This document shows, piece by piece, positions 22,790 to 32,518 of a stretch of 64,000 nucleotides of DNA. Numbering within the stretch: the first letter of the stretch is position 1; each line of letters starts with the position of its first letter. The position numbers were made by a program, and so were the translations under genes. The stretch lies in contig NZ_CP030034.1 in the NCBI RefSeq assembly GCF_006874625.1, positions 3,162,001 to 3,226,000 on the forward strand, read 5' to 3'. The notes under the pieces were generated by a model that ran no database searches, was not told the origin of the DNA, and saw nothing but the letters and a program-made list of their open reading frames with translations. The DNA comes from Bdellovibrio sp. NC01 (GTDB lineage Bacteria > Bdellovibrionota > Bdellovibrionia > Bdellovibrionales > Bdellovibrionaceae).

Positions 22790-24337
22790 TTACTCGCAAG
22801 ATTTAGATTTCGAATAGAAGAACCAGTGGAACTTCGATTGGTCAGAAGGACGGCTTGAGCCTTCACCGTGACCGAATGGAGAGTTCTGCGATTCGATATA
22901 TTCTTTATGAAGCTTACAGTCTTGTTTTCTGTAGTCGTCATTCATCGCTGTCAGATCACGGAACGTTGGCAAGTAGCCGTGTTCCTTATAATAAGCATCT
23001 TCTTTAGCGTAGATGTTCTTTTCCAACGTCGTCGCTACGGCCTCAAATTGTGCCGTCGTTCTTAACGTTTGAATTGGCATATACTTCGGCAAGATATCTT
23101 TCACCAAACCGAATTGGCGCAAGAATTTACCAAGGTAGGCTTTACCTGAAGAACTCAAAGACCAATGGAATTCATAGTTCTTATCGATCATCCAACCGTA
23201 AACACTTTGCATAACCGCATCTTGCATACGGACTTGGCGCAGAAGTGGATAGTATTTGTATTCAGCAACGAAATCAAAACGTGGGTCCGCTTCGATATCG
23301 AATGGTGCAAACAACGTTTTAGAAGTTACACCCAATGATGCTGGATATTCTGTGTTTTTAAATTTTCTTACCGAACTTCTGAACTTCGGAACGATGAATT
23401 GACCGTTTGAAGCTTTGTCGTAAGCGTATTTACCAACTTCAGAGCAGAAGAAACCATCACTGTAGTTGCTATCGTTCATCGCGAAGTCATAACGGATTTC
23501 ACCGTTCTTTTTAATGCCATTGTAAGCGTAGTCGTACATTGCTTTACCGGCACGCTTCGCAAGATCAGCATCTTTAGCACGATACAAGGCAACACGAGCG
23601 TCTTGTGCCGCAACCCACTTTTCAAGTGGCGTGATGATGATACCTGTTTGAATCAAAGATTCGACAACGTATTTTTTGCCGGCTTTATCCTCACCCACGA
23701 TTGCCAAGTGCGAGAAGTTTCCTTCTTCGTCTGCAATACGCGCGATCATCGCTGACACGTAGCTCTTACCACGAACGACCATCAAGTCACCCGTCTGTAA
23801 CGAGAAGCCTTCAAACTTTGGATTTGTCATTGTATAGATAGGATCTGCTTCCAAGATTTTTGGTGTGCGCACGTCCACCACTTTATTGTGAACAAGCCAT
23901 TCCAAAAGATACTCTTCTGTAATACGCGAATACTGAATGCCTTCACGCACTTTCAACATACATGCTTCAGTCAATTCATTGCGCTCGTCGAAACCTTGGT
24001 ATTTTTCACGCAAAGTCACACGCACTTGGAAAAGACTTTTCAAAAGCTCTACACCATTTGCTTTTAGGTAGGCTTTCTCAGCTTCAGTCTTTGGTACAAA
24101 ATAATCAGAGCTTGCACCATACAAATAATCAGTCACACCGTTAATGTATGAAGCGCACGTTTGGGCGTTAAATACACTTGTATCATTCAAATCAGCCAAT
24201 ACCTTTGAAGCACCTGTGAATAACTCTTGAGTACTTGCTGGGTTTCTTGAACGCTCGAAAAATTTGGGCGGAGTCTGGCAGCTTGTCGCCGTCAAAGTCA
24301 TCGCCATCATCACCGCTGTGAATACGATTTTATTCAT
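22790..24337 (-). CDS. Lipoprotein with permuted NlpC/P60 (YiiX-like) papain-type domain
   Basis: I chose the ATG at 24335-24337, which has GAGGA six bases upstream. The lipoprotein signal ends in ATSC (Cys20). The middle of the 515-residue protein shows the permuted papain pattern seen in YiiX/YaeF-type proteins. GDLMVVRG is followed by NFSHLAIVGED with the probable catalytic His, YVVESLIQTGI, and DGFFCSEVGKYAYD with the probable nucleophilic Cys. These families hydrolyse amide or thioester links in the envelope or in lipids (family knowledge); the substrate here is unknown. The flanking 140 N-terminal and 200 C-terminal residues have no recognised domain. Confidence 0.8.
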   Translation of the reverse strand: MNKIVFTAVMMAMTLTATSCQTPPKFFERSRNPASTQELFTGASKVLADLNDTSVFNAQTCASYINGVTDYLYGASSDYFVPKTEAEKAYLKANGVELLKSLFQVRVTLREKYQGFDERNELTEACMLKVREGIQYSRITEEYLLEWLVHNKVVDVRTPKILEADPIYTMTNPKFEGFSLQTGDLMVVRGKSYVSAMIARIADEEGNFSHLAIVGEDKAGKKYVVESLIQTGIIITPLEKWVAAQDARVALYRAKDADLAKRAGKAMYDYAYNGIKKNGEIRYDFAMNDSNYSDGFFCSEVGKYAYDKASNGQFIVPKFRSSVRKFKNTEYPASLGVTSKTLFAPFDIEADPRFDFVAEYKYYPLLRQVRMQDAVMQSVYGWMIDKNYEFHWSLSSSGKAYLGKFLRQFGLVKDILPKYMPIQTLRTTAQFEAVATTLEKNIYAKEDAYYKEHGYLPTFRDLTAMNDDYRKQDCKLHKEYIESQNSPFGHGEGSSRPSDQSKFHWFFYSKSKSCE

Positions 24338-24532
24338 GAAAGTCCTCATATTGTATTTAGTTAACCTGAACTTTTTCGGCAGCTTTTCTTGTTTACTGAA
24401 CAGGACCTGACCTAAGGCGAGCCCCTTTACGTCAAGTTTTTTTGAGATCCCAAATCTAGACTAAACGGCTATTAGGTTAAGACGATAAGAGGGAGGCTTA
24501 TATTTTACTTTTAAAACCAATAGAGGACATAA

Positions 24533-27456: not shown

Positions 27457-27610
27457 ATGTCTACCTTTCTAACAGCATCAGGACACTTTTAGGCAAAGCT
27501 TCTATTCGTCTCAAACTGAGACATGTATTTGTCTATCTAACTATCTGAAATAACAGATGAGTTTGTTGGCCAGGTCCTTGCTCCTCAATCTCGAAGGAGG
27601 AGCCCTACTC

Positions 27611-28891
27611 ATGAAACCTTCGACATCTTCTTATATTGCGAAGCTTACGCTGATGAATATCTGCACGGCATTTTTGCTGGGTATGGGATATGGTCTGCCT
27701 CACTCAACAATGGATCTGTCTTCTGAAACTGACATGCAAAGCCCTGAAATCGTGGCTCCTGTTATTGAGCATGCGTTAGATCAAGTTGATAAAGCTAAAA
27801 ATCTATCTAACTTATTTGGTTGGTTCGATAATTCCGCATCTAAGAACTGTGAAGACTGCGTAAAACAAATCTCAAGCATGCGTTATGCTCAATGTAGCGC
27901 CACCGACAAAAACGGATACATGGAAAAATCTTTAAGTGATGCTTCCCTATCTAATTCAATGATCGGTCGTTTGATCCGTCGTCCTGTTCGCCCTGACTCT
28001 ATTATTAAGCCAATTTGCATGCAGATGAGCATGGAATTGGGTCGCTCTGCATTGCCTCGCAGCTCTTTCAAGGGTTGCAGCAAAGAAGGTTATGGCGCAG
28101 CAACTGGTGCGGCATGTGTTAGCGAAAACTACTTTAAACTTATGAACAACAGCTTCGACCTTGTTTCGACATGTATGAAAGACTTCATCGGTGCCGGTGA
28201 AAGCGAAGACATGAAAAAACTTGATGTGCGTGCTGTGTACGCCCTGGTAAACGTTGAATCTGGCTTTCACATGAACGCTGTCAGCGGCACAGGTGCTGGC
28301 GGTATCGGTCAATTTACAAGTGCAGCGATTAAAGATGTGAATGTGAATGAACTTCCAGCCGTACGTAATTCTTTGGAATCGAATGCGAATCCAGTATGCG
28401 GTCGCATGTCGATGGAATTCTTGGATTCTATGCAACCGATTAAAGACGCCGCTTCAAAATCATGCGAACGCATTTCTTTGAAAAATGGCAACCCAGTTAA
28501 AAACATGATCTACACATTCGCTTACCTTCGCGGTGTGAAGAAAGATATGGATCGTTCGATTTTTAAAAACAAAGAATATTCTAAAAAGTTTAAACTTTCT
28601 GAATACGATTTGGCGAAAGTGAAACGCGCAATGATGGTGTGGTCTCATAACACGGGATCGAATGGAACACTCACTCCAACTAAAGCATTATTGCGTACGC
28701 TTTACAGAAATAAGCCCGTCACAAACGCCGACGCATTTATCGCCCAACTTCAACAGTACATGCAGAAGTATCCAGCTGGTGCGAACGCAACAACTGCGCG
28801 CCGTCGAGAAACTTCAAGTTATTTTCCTAAAATCACTAATCTATTAAATCAAATTGAAAACAATGCTGGAGGTGGCTCGTGCGTAAACTAA
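27611..28891 (+). CDS. Secreted lytic-transglycosylase-like (SLT) protein with a novel C-terminal module
   Basis: I chose the ATG at 27611, which follows AAGGAGG with a ten-base gap; an earlier in-frame ATG at 27557 has no such site. An N-terminal hydrophobic segment (about residues 10-28) may export the 426-residue protein. A Cys-rich stretch (SKNCEDCVKQ) is followed at about 205-250 by an SLT-like core: YALVNVESGFHMNAVSGTGA with the probable catalytic Glu, then GGIGQFTSAA. Goose-type and Slt-type transglycosylases share this. The last 75 residues form a module with LTPTxAxLxxxYRNxxVT and RRRET that recurs in the lipoprotein at 30347. It is the first gene of an overlapping four-gene unit. 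Confidence 0.8.
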   Translation: MKPSTSSYIAKLTLMNICTAFLLGMGYGLPHSTMDLSSETDMQSPEIVAPVIEHALDQVDKAKNLSNLFGWFDNSASKNCEDCVKQISSMRYAQCSATDKNGYMEKSLSDASLSNSMIGRLIRRPVRPDSIIKPICMQMSMELGRSALPRSSFKGCSKEGYGAATGAACVSENYFKLMNNSFDLVSTCMKDFIGAGESEDMKKLDVRAVYALVNVESGFHMNAVSGTGAGGIGQFTSAAIKDVNVNELPAVRNSLESNANPVCGRMSMEFLDSMQPIKDAASKSCERISLKNGNPVKNMIYTFAYLRGVKKDMDRSIFKNKEYSKKFKLSEYDLAKVKRAMMVWSHNTGSNGTLTPTKALLRTLYRNKPVTNADAFIAQLQQYMQKYPAGANATTARRRETSSYFPKITNLLNQIENNAGGGSCVN

Positions 28892-29307
28892 TTATTATCG
28901 CAATGCTATTTGCAAGCTCGCATTCTTTTGCATTCAGCAATCCTGCCGTATTAAAGGCAACACAGGATCTAACTGTATATCTTCAAAAAACGCAGTCTTC
29001 AGCATTAAAAGCTCGCACCCTGGCTGCATTTAAAAATTTCGTGTCTTCTCAAATTGATCAAATGGATATGCCCGAAGATGGACTTACTGCATCCAACCAG
29101 CAAGCTAAAGAATTTGCTAGTTTGTTAGAGTTTGAGACGTATTTAGAAAATCTGAATGTTCGCAACTTAAATGAAGAGCGTTGCAAACAAATCAATGCGC
29201 ACCTAGAAGCTACGTCACATGGTGCAAGTGGGCAACCAATTCTGAATGAAATGACGGCTTACCAAGCTTCAGAACAAATTGTTTCGGCACTTTGCCCTAA
29301 GTCGTAA
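28879..29307 (+). CDS. Small secreted protein of the transglycosylase/ankyrin cassette
   Basis: It starts at a GTG at 28879 inside the end of the previous gene (13-base overlap), with GGAGGTGG just before it. The 142-residue product has a signal peptide (MRKLIIIAMLFASSHSFA). The rest is helical by eye with two cysteines (ERCKQ and ALCPK). No family was recognised. Its stop overlaps the next ATG (TAATG), so it is translated with both neighbours. Its conserved position suggests a role with the transglycosylase or the ankyrin lipoproteins. Confidence 0.75.
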   Translation: MRKLIIIAMLFASSHSFAFSNPAVLKATQDLTVYLQKTQSSALKARTLAAFKNFVSSQIDQMDMPEDGLTASNQQAKEFASLLEFETYLENLNVRNLNEERCKQINAHLEATSHGASGQPILNEMTAYQASEQIVSALCPKS

Positions 29308-30350
29308 TGGTTAAAGCCGGGCTCTCAACCCTCATTTTAATCTGTACTCTTTCGGGATGCTCCTTCAAAAAGCATCCTGGGGCCGCTAATGAGCCTGAGT
29401 TGAAATCATATTCAACTTCAGCATCCAAAGATTTATTTTCGATAGTTAAAAATGACCCTGTAGATAATATAATCGCCGCATTAAACAATGCATCGCCGTC
29501 TCAACTTCAACATTTAAATGAGGATGGCGATTCTCTCATGCATGTGGCTGTTAAGCGCGGAAATGCAGAGATTATCTCCATCTTATTTTCGCGTGGAATT
29601 TCTATATATCTAAAAAACTCTAAGTCAGGCTTAAGAGCTTCCGACTTACCCCAAACTGAAGATGTTCATAATCAGATTCGACGCATACATTTGGCAAATG
29701 TCGAAAAAATAAAATATTTTATCAACGATCATAACGACACAACACTACTAACTTATATTTCCCAATCTCAGATGCCTTGCGCACCCGTTCTCAATTATAT
29801 TTTAGAACTAGTCATTCGGAATCGCCAAATTGAAGTCGAAAAATTCGGAGCTGATGATTTTTCAAGAATAAGTGCATCTGAAGAATGCCAGGTCGATAAT
29901 TCTGATTTAATACAGGCTTGGTACCAGAGAGAGTTCGTATTTCAATTGAAGACTGGATTCAAAGATCTATCCGTTATTGAGTCCATTTCAAAAATCGGTC
30001 TAAAATCATTTTACCTAGTGGGAAAAAGCGGAAATTTAATTTCACCTTATCTATTGATTGATCAGAAATTCGCAATATTCGATAAAAACGATTTGTTTCA
30101 CACAGGGACTTTATCATTTTCAAAAGAACGTGACGACGTCGTTACTCTTTTTTCAAAAATTGCGAATATCTCTAACGAGATTGCATTCTATTCAAGCGAT
30201 TTGAAAAATTCCGTATCTTATAATCCTGAAGTTCAACTAAAAGGCCGAAATATTCCAGAACCATACTTCACTGACATACGCACTTTGAATTCGACCGACT
30301 CAGAACCAACTATCATAACCTCTTTAAAAAAAGAGGGATTTGAACTATGA
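29307..30350 (+). CDS. Ankyrin-repeat lipoprotein
   Basis: The 347-residue product has a lipoprotein signal with lipobox LSGC at residues 15-18. Residues about 45-125 resemble two ankyrin repeats: LNEDGDSLMHVAVKRGNAEI with ISILFSRGISIYLKN, then a partial repeat. The following 220 residues have no recognised fold. Base composition is more AT-rich than the rest of the window, with many AAA, TTA and ATA codons. It starts by TAATG overlap and ends by ATGA overlap, so it lies tightly inside the operon. Its outer-membrane location is inferred from the absence of an Asp after the lipid Cys. Confidence 0.75.
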   Translation: MVKAGLSTLILICTLSGCSFKKHPGAANEPELKSYSTSASKDLFSIVKNDPVDNIIAALNNASPSQLQHLNEDGDSLMHVAVKRGNAEIISILFSRGISIYLKNSKSGLRASDLPQTEDVHNQIRRIHLANVEKIKYFINDHNDTTLLTYISQSQMPCAPVLNYILELVIRNRQIEVEKFGADDFSRISASEECQVDNSDLIQAWYQREFVFQLKTGFKDLSVIESISKIGLKSFYLVGKSGNLISPYLLIDQKFAIFDKNDLFHTGTLSFSKERDDVVTLFSKIANISNEIAFYSSDLKNSVSYNPEVQLKGRNIPEPYFTDIRTLNSTDSEPTIITSLKKEGFEL

Positions 30351-31813
30351 TACATTTTAAAAAAATTATAATTATCCTCATCCTATTTTCGCTAGCGGCT
30401 TGCTCATTTTCAAAAAACAATAACGCAAGCCCCAGTGCGCCATTGTCGAATAAGAGCAAAGCGGAAATTGATCTTCTTAACAGTAAGATCGCATCCGACG
30501 ATGCCGACAAAGTTCACGAAGCCATTAGTTCGAATAAAAACTTACTAAATATGATCGACTCGAAGGGAATGCTTCCGCTTGATGTCGCTATTTCTAGAGG
30601 TCAGATAAACATTATTAACGACTTATTGGCACAAAATGCGTCTATATTTGTAAAGTCAATATCAAATCTCAGTCCGTATGAGAGACGCAGTTCTTTTTCA
30701 AAACAAGTAAAATCAATAATTGAAAACAGTGCTAAAAATTTATTTCATTCGAACATGAAAGCCATATTAAGTGGAGATACATTTAATCGCGACTTGCCAT
30801 GCTCCGTGTTTTTCGAAAACTATATTGGTTTAAGCTCTAATAAGCGCGAAGAATACCCGCTTAAAAGTATTATTAGCATTCAAGACAGCCATTCTTGCAT
30901 TAATGATCTTAACCTATCAACGACACAAGACCTTTTCTTCAAGGAATTGTATTTCCAAAGGCAAAATTTAGTTAGATCAACAGAGCTACTTCGTTTTTTA
31001 AAAACAGTCGCTGCAAACTCAAAACTATTGTTTAAGATCGAAATCCCACAAGGAACGATTGCTCTAACTCCTAGAGCTTTTATTTTGCAAATAGTTACAT
31101 TTTCGAAAAACAATCTTTTAAAGATTCCTGGGGACCTGTCCTCTATCATTGGCGAAGATGACCTCGTTGCGGAAATCTATTCAAAAGACGGATTGCTACA
31201 GCGTAGTATTAAATCCAATGAGATTTTCAATTCGAGCGATTCTTTATTGATTTACGAATTACCTACTTCATCAATCTCAAATTTGCTTAAGTCTTCTTTT
31301 GACTCGGAACAACCGTTCTGGCCGATGTTTGCTTTAGAGAATCCAAATTGTTCTAAACTTTCAAAATTTATACTTTTCGACGGTCAACTTCATAATCCAG
31401 TTTCTGTCTCTGAAATCTGCCTAAATGACAATGCCTTGGAAAACTTCACGTGTTCAGATGATCGTCTATCCGAGATCCAATCACACATTGAAGAACAACT
31501 CTTTAGCGGAGCATTTGCTTCTAAATTCAATTTAAACAGTAATCAGAAATTATTAATCACCAATTACCTGTCATTTACTGCAATGAGAATTTCATTAGCA
31601 GGAGTCTTAACTCCAACATCTGCCGTACTTCACTCCGTTTATCGCAATCAATCTGTAACCGACGAGAAAAAGTTTTTGCGTGACGTTTTCGCGGGAATGA
31701 TGCTCTTTCCCTCACAAGCAAACAAGGAGCGAAGATCCGAAACAGCAAACTACATAAACGATTTCGTGAAGATTACAAACGAAAATTTAGCGAGCTGCAT
31801 GGGCAACCGCTGA
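30347..31813 (+). CDS. Ankyrin-repeat lipoprotein with the transglycosylase-type C-terminal module
   Basis: The 488-residue protein starts by ATGA overlap. Its lipoprotein signal ends in LAAC. Residues about 45-115 carry ankyrin-like repeats (NMIDSKGMLPLDVAISRGQI, NIINDLLAQNASIFVK), so it is related in design to the gene before it. The middle part is unassigned. The last 70 residues hold LTPTSAVLHSVYRNQSVT, then ANKERRSETANYI, which matches the C-terminus of the transglycosylase-like protein at 27611. The gene is clearly AT-rich. No terminator was found after it; the nuclease gene follows after 39 bases. Confidence 0.75.
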   Translation: MIHFKKIIIILILFSLAACSFSKNNNASPSAPLSNKSKAEIDLLNSKIASDDADKVHEAISSNKNLLNMIDSKGMLPLDVAISRGQINIINDLLAQNASIFVKSISNLSPYERRSSFSKQVKSIIENSAKNLFHSNMKAILSGDTFNRDLPCSVFFENYIGLSSNKREEYPLKSIISIQDSHSCINDLNLSTTQDLFFKELYFQRQNLVRSTELLRFLKTVAANSKLLFKIEIPQGTIALTPRAFILQIVTFSKNNLLKIPGDLSSIIGEDDLVAEIYSKDGLLQRSIKSNEIFNSSDSLLIYELPTSSISNLLKSSFDSEQPFWPMFALENPNCSKLSKFILFDGQLHNPVSVSEICLNDNALENFTCSDDRLSEIQSHIEEQLFSGAFASKFNLNSNQKLLITNYLSFTAMRISLAGVLTPTSAVLHSVYRNQSVTDEKKFLRDVFAGMMLFPSQANKERRSETANYINDFVKITNENLASCMGNR

Positions 31814-31852: not shown

Positions 31853-32518
31853 ATGCGATTTGCCAGTAAACTTCTTATCGGTCTTTCTATCAGCCTGACT
31901 CCGGTGTTGGGTCTGGCTGATTCTATTATGGGTCGTATCGTTGACGTTCATGACGGCGACACCCTCACCGTACAAGTTCCCGGCGAAGCAAAGAAATATA
32001 AAATCCGCATGCTTGGGGTTGATACTCCTGAAGTTGAATTCTTTCAGAAGTCGCAAGGTGAAGCCGCGTTTATGGCGCGCGACTTCTTACGCTCGCTGGC
32101 TCCGGTTGGCAGTACGGCCACAGTTACCTATGACACCAATGGTTTTGATAAACACGATCGCATCCTAGGTCGTATTGTTGTGAACAACGTCGAAGTGAAT
32201 CGCGCCATGCTTTCTGAGGGCTGGGGCTATTTTTACGTGATATTTCCATTCGATAAAAAAGTCATTGCCGAATACAGCGATCTTGCTGAACAAGCGTTCG
32301 AAAACAGAAAAGGACTTTTTTCTGCTAAATATTCTAACGTTGAGGCCCCTTACGAATTCCGTTTGCATGTACGCAATCAACAAGGTTTGAATCTTGTCGG
32401 CGACATTGAAACGAAAGCGCTGTACTCCCCGTCGGAAAGCGATCAAGTACCGGTATATCGCAGAGTCTTCTTTTCTGATCAGACACTTGCTGAACGCGCT
32501 GGCTACAAACGTAAATAA
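31853..32518 (+). CDS. Secreted thermonuclease-like (SNase) protein
   Basis: The 221-residue protein has a signal peptide ending near LGLAD and one SNase fold (about 25-155), a calcium-dependent nuclease family. Visible are VHDGDTLTV (metal Asp), IRMLGVDTPE (Arg and Asp of the active site), QGEAA (the general-base Glu position) and KHDRILGRIV (second Arg). The C-terminal 65 residues are extra. Nucleases of this type are plausible tools for digesting prey nucleic acid (inference). It is convergent with the LysR gene, one base away. Confidence 0.9.
   Translation: MRFASKLLIGLSISLTPVLGLADSIMGRIVDVHDGDTLTVQVPGEAKKYKIRMLGVDTPEVEFFQKSQGEAAFMARDFLRSLAPVGSTATVTYDTNGFDKHDRILGRIVVNNVEVNRAMLSEGWGYFYVIFPFDKKVIAEYSDLAEQAFENRKGLFSAKYSNVEAPYEFRLHVRNQQGLNLVGDIETKALYSPSESDQVPVYRRVFFSDQTLAERAGYKRK

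Follow-up and report, generated by a model that had tools for sequence, protein, structure and literature searches.

Gene organization of the locus

We analyzed a 64,000-nt stretch of the genome of Bdellovibrio sp. NC01 (hereafter, the window), which contains at positions 27611-31813 four consecutive genes, g1 to g4 (Table 1). The whole of g4 spans 30347-31813. Neighboring genes overlap by 13 (g1/g2), 1 (g2/g3) and 4 bases (g3/g4), and the coordinates thus bear out the four overlapping open reading frames reported in the initial annotation. An upstream ATG at 27557 offers a possible alternative start for g1. Scans of the locus for promoters and terminators yielded hits at chance level only. 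The G+C content of g3-g4 is 35-37%, compared with 40-47% in the surroundings. Elsewhere in the window, a lipoprotein-like gene on the minus strand (22790-24349) encodes a permuted papain-like amidase domain (Peptidase_C92, 6.4e-10), and most relatives also have this gene close to g1.

Table 1 Genes and gene parts at the g1-g4 locus (window coordinates).
Feature	Position	Strand	Description	Evidence
g1	27611..28891	+	predicted secreted SLT/GH23-type lytic transglycosylase, 426 aa	
g2	28879..29307	+	small secreted protein, 142 aa, GTG start, conserved Cys C102 and C139	
g3	29307..30350	+	ankyrin lipoprotein of the C-S-F-x-K family; C18; C158/C194 conserved	alignment A1, profile search
g4, N-terminal part	30347..31330	+	ankyrin lipoprotein of the same family as g3; C19; C152/C184	alignment A1, profile search
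g4, C-terminal part (about residues 332-488)	31340..31813	+	degenerate copy of the C-terminal half of the g1 SLT domain	BLASTP, HMM, alignment A7, residue test
SNase-like nuclease gene	31853..32518	+	secreted SNase-like nuclease	Pfam SNase 1.1e-11

g1 encodes a predicted lytic transglycosylase

The family match, the conserved catalytic Glu and the modeled fold of g1 all agree with a GH23/SLT lytic transglycosylase, whose activity is predicted. Pfam SLT (PF01464) matched residues 197-245 at 1.8e-8, above the cut-off, and the protein carries the catalytic Glu E216 (ESGF) together with the motifs GGIGQF, WSHNTG (W344-G349) and ET..Y (E400-Y404). Across 23 relatives of g1, E216-S217-G218, G231-x-G233-Q234, W344, H346, N347, G349, E400 and several cysteines are invariant. 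The AF2 model of g1 had a mean pLDDT of 77.5, with low confidence for residues 1-80, and its best fold match was MltC (Z 12.6, rmsd 3.0 Å over 167 residues), with MltE (Z 12), then MltF and Slt, as further matches. Searches of PDB sequences with g1 and with the g1-family profile gave zero matches to solved structures, so the fold assignment rests on Pfam and the model. These results confirm the SLT-type core with a catalytic Glu that had been noticed initially.

The g1-g2 pair is old and g3-g4 was inserted behind it

Pfam and NCBIfam searches with g2 returned nothing above cut-off. Orthologues of g1 occur in most Bdellovibrio genomes and in some genomes of the family, and in most relatives examined g2 adjoins g1, the two genes sharing about 13 bases; g2 is a constant partner of g1. 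What follows the two genes differs between genomes. In the nearest relative (G019), whose g1 is 81% identical, the SNase gene comes directly after g1-g2 (L061) and therefore delimits the g3-g4 insertion on its far side, while a LysR gene or other genes follow g1-g2 in other relatives. Among the relatives compared, the SNase-like gene occupies this place only in NC01 and G019.

The g3-g4 pair lies behind g2 only in NC01 and is absent from this site in all relatives checked. We therefore rejected the idea that the four genes form one conserved, ancient cassette: g1 and g2 constitute an ancient, vertically kept unit of the genus, behind which g3 and g4 were inserted as a pair in the NC01 lineage. 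The separate history initially suspected for the AT-rich ankyrin part is supported by both its G+C content and its absence from relatives.

g4 carries the C-terminal half of an SLT domain

The initial annotation described a module of two short motifs common to g1 and g4, which could dock both proteins to one site. The likeness is far above chance (BLASTP 6e-12; g1-family HMM against g4 9e-17), but its real extent is much larger, spanning about 150 residues (g1 260-410, g4 332-478). Because it begins just past the catalytic half of the SLT domain, the module corresponds to the remaining, C-terminal half, and its RRxET stretch presumably resembles the family 1 lytic transglycosylase motif ET-x-x-Y. 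A profile search of 143 genomes of the class found the module almost exclusively as the tail of g1-type proteins; most carriers have one copy per genome, in open frames of g1 size that proved to be g1 orthologues where read. The one additional strong copy is that of g4, the fusion being found in NC01 only; G060 has a second, weaker match. This search led us to reject a widespread, free-standing docking domain.

We also rejected the possibility that g4 is an active SLT enzyme. Similarity starts only at g1 residue 260, leaving g4 without the catalytic Glu half, and W344, H346, N347 and G349 of the WSHNTG motif are replaced by T, M, R and S. The g4 module retains C335, C484 and E465-T466-Y469. 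It keeps 18 of the 35 residues that are invariant in 13 g1 proteins, compared with 25 of 132 other aligned residues (Fisher P 2e-4), a difference to which the alignment may add, as it favors conserved columns. Such a pattern agrees with selection that maintained the fold but not the activity. In a tree of the module, g4 joins the g1 branch of NC01 and G019 (80/91), although on a saturated, very long branch; the sequences make derivation of the g4 module from g1 likely. The g4 model was folded with the ankyrin family alignment only, and the module region, with pLDDT mostly <60, gives no fold claim.

The C-terminal part of g4 might alternatively be a decaying, functionless remnant of a g1 duplicate that is read in frame, which would be compatible with any role of the ankyrin part. 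Its occurrence in one genome, the very long branch, the lost catalytic motif and the low model confidence agree with such decay. About 150 codons free of stops and frameshifts, and the more frequent retention of g1-invariant residues than of others, to which alignment bias could add, speak against a remnant, and we consider this explanation improbable.

g3 and g4 belong to a family of tandem ankyrin lipoproteins

Both g3 and g4 carry lipoboxes, while single-protein Pfam ankyrin matches were weak and below curated cut-offs. The g4 model contains an ankyrin domain at about residues 34-137 (Z about 12), and the lipoboxes and this fold uphold the initial description of the third and fourth genes as ankyrin lipoproteins. 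Although only 25% alike, the two proteins share the features of the family seen in alignment A1: S-F-x-K after the lipobox, a single ankyrin unit and a pair of conserved Cys. These features, together with their arrangement as an overlapping tandem pair, place them in the family of Bd1180. In a search of the class that scored at most 14 candidates per genome, strong full-length matches were confined to the genus Bdellovibrio.

Family members mostly occur as tandem pairs with short overlaps, often of 1 or 4 bases. In the family tree, the first genes of the pairs and the second genes fall into two mostly distinct lineages whose branching orders mirror each other, indicating that the pair is copied as a unit. 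The exception is g4, which groups with the first-position proteins of a locus with a 460-aa gene (97/94). g4 is also the only ankyrin lipoprotein in the set with an extension that clearly resembles a neighboring enzyme. L130:6238-8673, L142:50-2491 and L143:4012-6504 each encode a single ankyrin lipoprotein (811-830 residues) whose long extension matches no Pfam family; elsewhere in the order, genomes of other families (G041, G039) have frames of 981-985 aa with a similar N-terminus.

Ankyrin pairs lie beside unrelated wall enzymes

A predator that sets free many wall-degrading enzymes in its prey must somehow spare its own wall, and one protector, Bd3460, is proven. Bd3460, an ankyrin protein with six repeats, inhibits Bd3459 and Bd0816, and Bd1180 was predicted to act with the L,D-transpeptidase Bd1181 as a Bd3460-like guard pair (Lambert et al. 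2015, PMC4686830). We looked at the neighbors of the ankyrin genes. In HD100, one pair adjoins an AmiA-like gene (PF07313, 2.3e-60); in HD100 and two other genomes a pair adjoins a weakly CHAP-like gene and an L,D-transpeptidase, and G008 has a single ankyrin gene beside an L,D-transpeptidase (1.2e-18). The second pair of NC01 adjoins a polysaccharide deacetylase (2.7e-25), and a SleB-type hydrolase lies beside a pair in G015, apparently at the same place as the NC01 deacetylase pair. Pairs in G020 and G017 lie beside DacB-type genes and a Bd3460-like gene, those of G020 being identified by matches to the solved Bd3459 and Bd3460. Divergent SLT paralogues that keep the ESG motif and have no Pfam match converge on an ankyrin pair (L135:2824-4455, L137:3835-5517). 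Past the pair of G017 (L132:4758-11474), DacB-type genes and small Bd3460-like ankyrin genes alternate, two of each, and this locus is an enlarged version of the Bd3459/Bd3460 locus.

Empty sites were found in relatives at the g1-g2 locus, at AmiA (L156) and at DacB/Bd3460 (L155, L158, L159), and NC01 itself has DacB and Bd3460-like genes without an ankyrin pair. Judged from sequence, the Bdellovibrio tandem ankyrin lipoproteins are a family that moves as a two-gene unit and settles beside several unrelated wall enzymes. Other pairs have no recognizable wall enzyme nearby and count against a guard function: they lie beside AcrB, MscL (both assigned by eye), a DEAD helicase and a 460-aa protein. 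The last is secreted, about 440-500 aa long (MKFTYPQKKWVLT type) and without a Pfam match, and its gene always precedes the pair in six genomes (L081:4943-6316, with relatives in L082-L084, L089 and L127).

A wall-enzyme family was present within 3.5 kb of 8 of the 18 ankyrin loci (P 4e-5) and in 6 of 14 independent contexts (P 4e-4), against an expected 7-9% that was derived from six families with 26-33 genes per genome, picked after the loci were seen. For the independent contexts, P was 0.016 at a doubled background (16%) and 0.09 at a tripled one (24%). The post hoc choice of families, and the pairs beside AcrB, the DEAD helicase, MscL and unassigned proteins, leave room for a mobile pair that merely hitch-hikes to permissive places, its nearness to wall enzymes reflecting chance and observer choice and its role lying elsewhere, for example on the prey side or in envelope stress. 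We regard this as quite unlikely, given that the enrichment persists at twice the background, that several placements are operon-like (overlaps of 4 bases with AmiA, 1 base with g2 and 4 bases with YkuD), and that the only AmiA-like gene of HD100 and the only Hydrolase_2 gene of G015 both sit at ankyrin pairs.

A candidate envelope-tethered guard

The presence of sister pairs beside other wall enzymes suggests that these lipoproteins protect the predator from its own enzymes. Because pairs adjoin wall enzymes, sites are empty in relatives, wall enzymes are enriched and Bd3460 and Bd1180 provide precedents, we tentatively propose, with a confidence somewhat short of even, that the inserted pair is an envelope-tethered guard of the nearby wall enzyme and that the SLT half of g4 serves as its decoy or address tag. 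The old unit of the secreted transglycosylase g1 and its small partner g2, kept vertically, would have received the two-gene lipoprotein unit behind it in the NC01 lineage. Tethered in the predator's own envelope, g3 and g4 would use their ankyrin and two-Cys part to bind and restrain the secreted wall enzyme encoded nearby, as Bd3460 does with DD-endopeptidases. In addition, g4 would have acquired its C-terminal SLT half, with g1 as the probable donor. This dead half may recognize the same ligand as its counterpart in g1, be it g2, g1 itself or a glycan strand, and would in this way direct the guard to g1. Since it lost the catalytic parts and kept fold-type residues, a decoy or address tag would be its most likely role. 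Against the guard reading, relatives keep g1 without g3-g4, implying that g1 needs no such guard there, and the ankyrin part consists of one short unit where Bd3460 has six repeats.

The same lipoproteins could instead hold wall enzymes at the envelope or pass them to an exporter, activating or placing them without inhibition. Lipoprotein anchors and variable enzyme partners fit a tether equally well as a guard, and L,D-transpeptidases and deacetylases are less obviously dangerous to the cell that makes them. Moreover, rounding of bdelloplasts was undiminished in prey expressing Bd1180, which argues that at least Bd1180 does not block DD-endopeptidases. However, Bd3460, the sole ankyrin protein of the genus with solved complexes, is an inhibitor, and two pairs directly adjoin Bd3460-type loci; we consider tethering or delivery unlikely.

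A broader form of the guard proposal would treat the genus-specific, repeatedly relocated pairs as dedicated partners of many unrelated enzymes of the wall, from SLT and AmiA-like amidase to L,D-transpeptidase, deacetylase and DacB, forming a modular self-protection kit in which the NC01 guard incorporates a dead half of its target as a recognition or decoy part. We view this generalization as rather doubtful. If true, the family would supply candidate enzyme-protector pairs at the AmiA-like locus of HD100 and in its Bd1179-Bd1181 region, and borrowing half of the target, as in the NC01 fusion, would be an evolutionary route to specificity.

Comparison with known systems

g1 has the fold and the catalytic ESG of the GH23/family 1 lytic transglycosylases (MltC, MltE, MltF and Slt), to which it adds a Cys-rich N-terminal part, and differs from them in having no sequence-level match to solved entries. 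What g4 has in common with these enzymes is the shared module, the C-terminal half of their domain. Tse3-Tsi3 toxin-immunity pairs likewise combine a wall-cutting enzyme with an adjacent candidate protector. The fold likeness of g1 to Tse3 is weak (Z 6), and the ankyrin proteins are not known to be related to Tsi3.

With Bd3460 and its targets Bd3459 and Bd0816, g3 and g4 share the plan of an exported ankyrin protein beside a peptidoglycan enzyme with a proposed role in self-protection, the overlaps from g1 through g4 placing them beside such an enzyme. Bd3460 is a soluble periplasmic protein, encoded beside a DacB-type DD-endopeptidase, whose six repeats make up the whole mature protein. In contrast, g3 and g4 are tandem lipoproteins beside an SLT enzyme, with a single ankyrin unit and a two-Cys region; in g4, the one unit is followed by a different part that includes the enzyme half. 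The complexes of Bd3460 have been solved, whereas g3 and g4 are likened to it from genes and models.

Another close parallel is Bd1180 of HD100, a second-position member of the g3/g4 family immediately upstream of an L,D-transpeptidase (L086, whose genes are equated with Bd1180/Bd1181 by adjacency, not accession). Our literature searches, which covered few subscription papers, found no mention of Bd1179-Bd1181 besides PMC4686830 and no description of the ankyrin-lipoprotein family or of the SLT-half fusion. The second enzyme-guard system put forward in the initial annotation therefore gains from its context, namely sister pairs beside unrelated wall enzymes, two of them at Bd3459/Bd3460-type loci, but the guard idea is not new for this family, as the prediction for Bd1180/Bd1181 precedes it. 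Bd1180 differs from g4 in pairing with another class of enzyme and in having no fused SLT half, and it is the breadth of enzyme neighbors and the fusion of an enzyme half that appear to be new.
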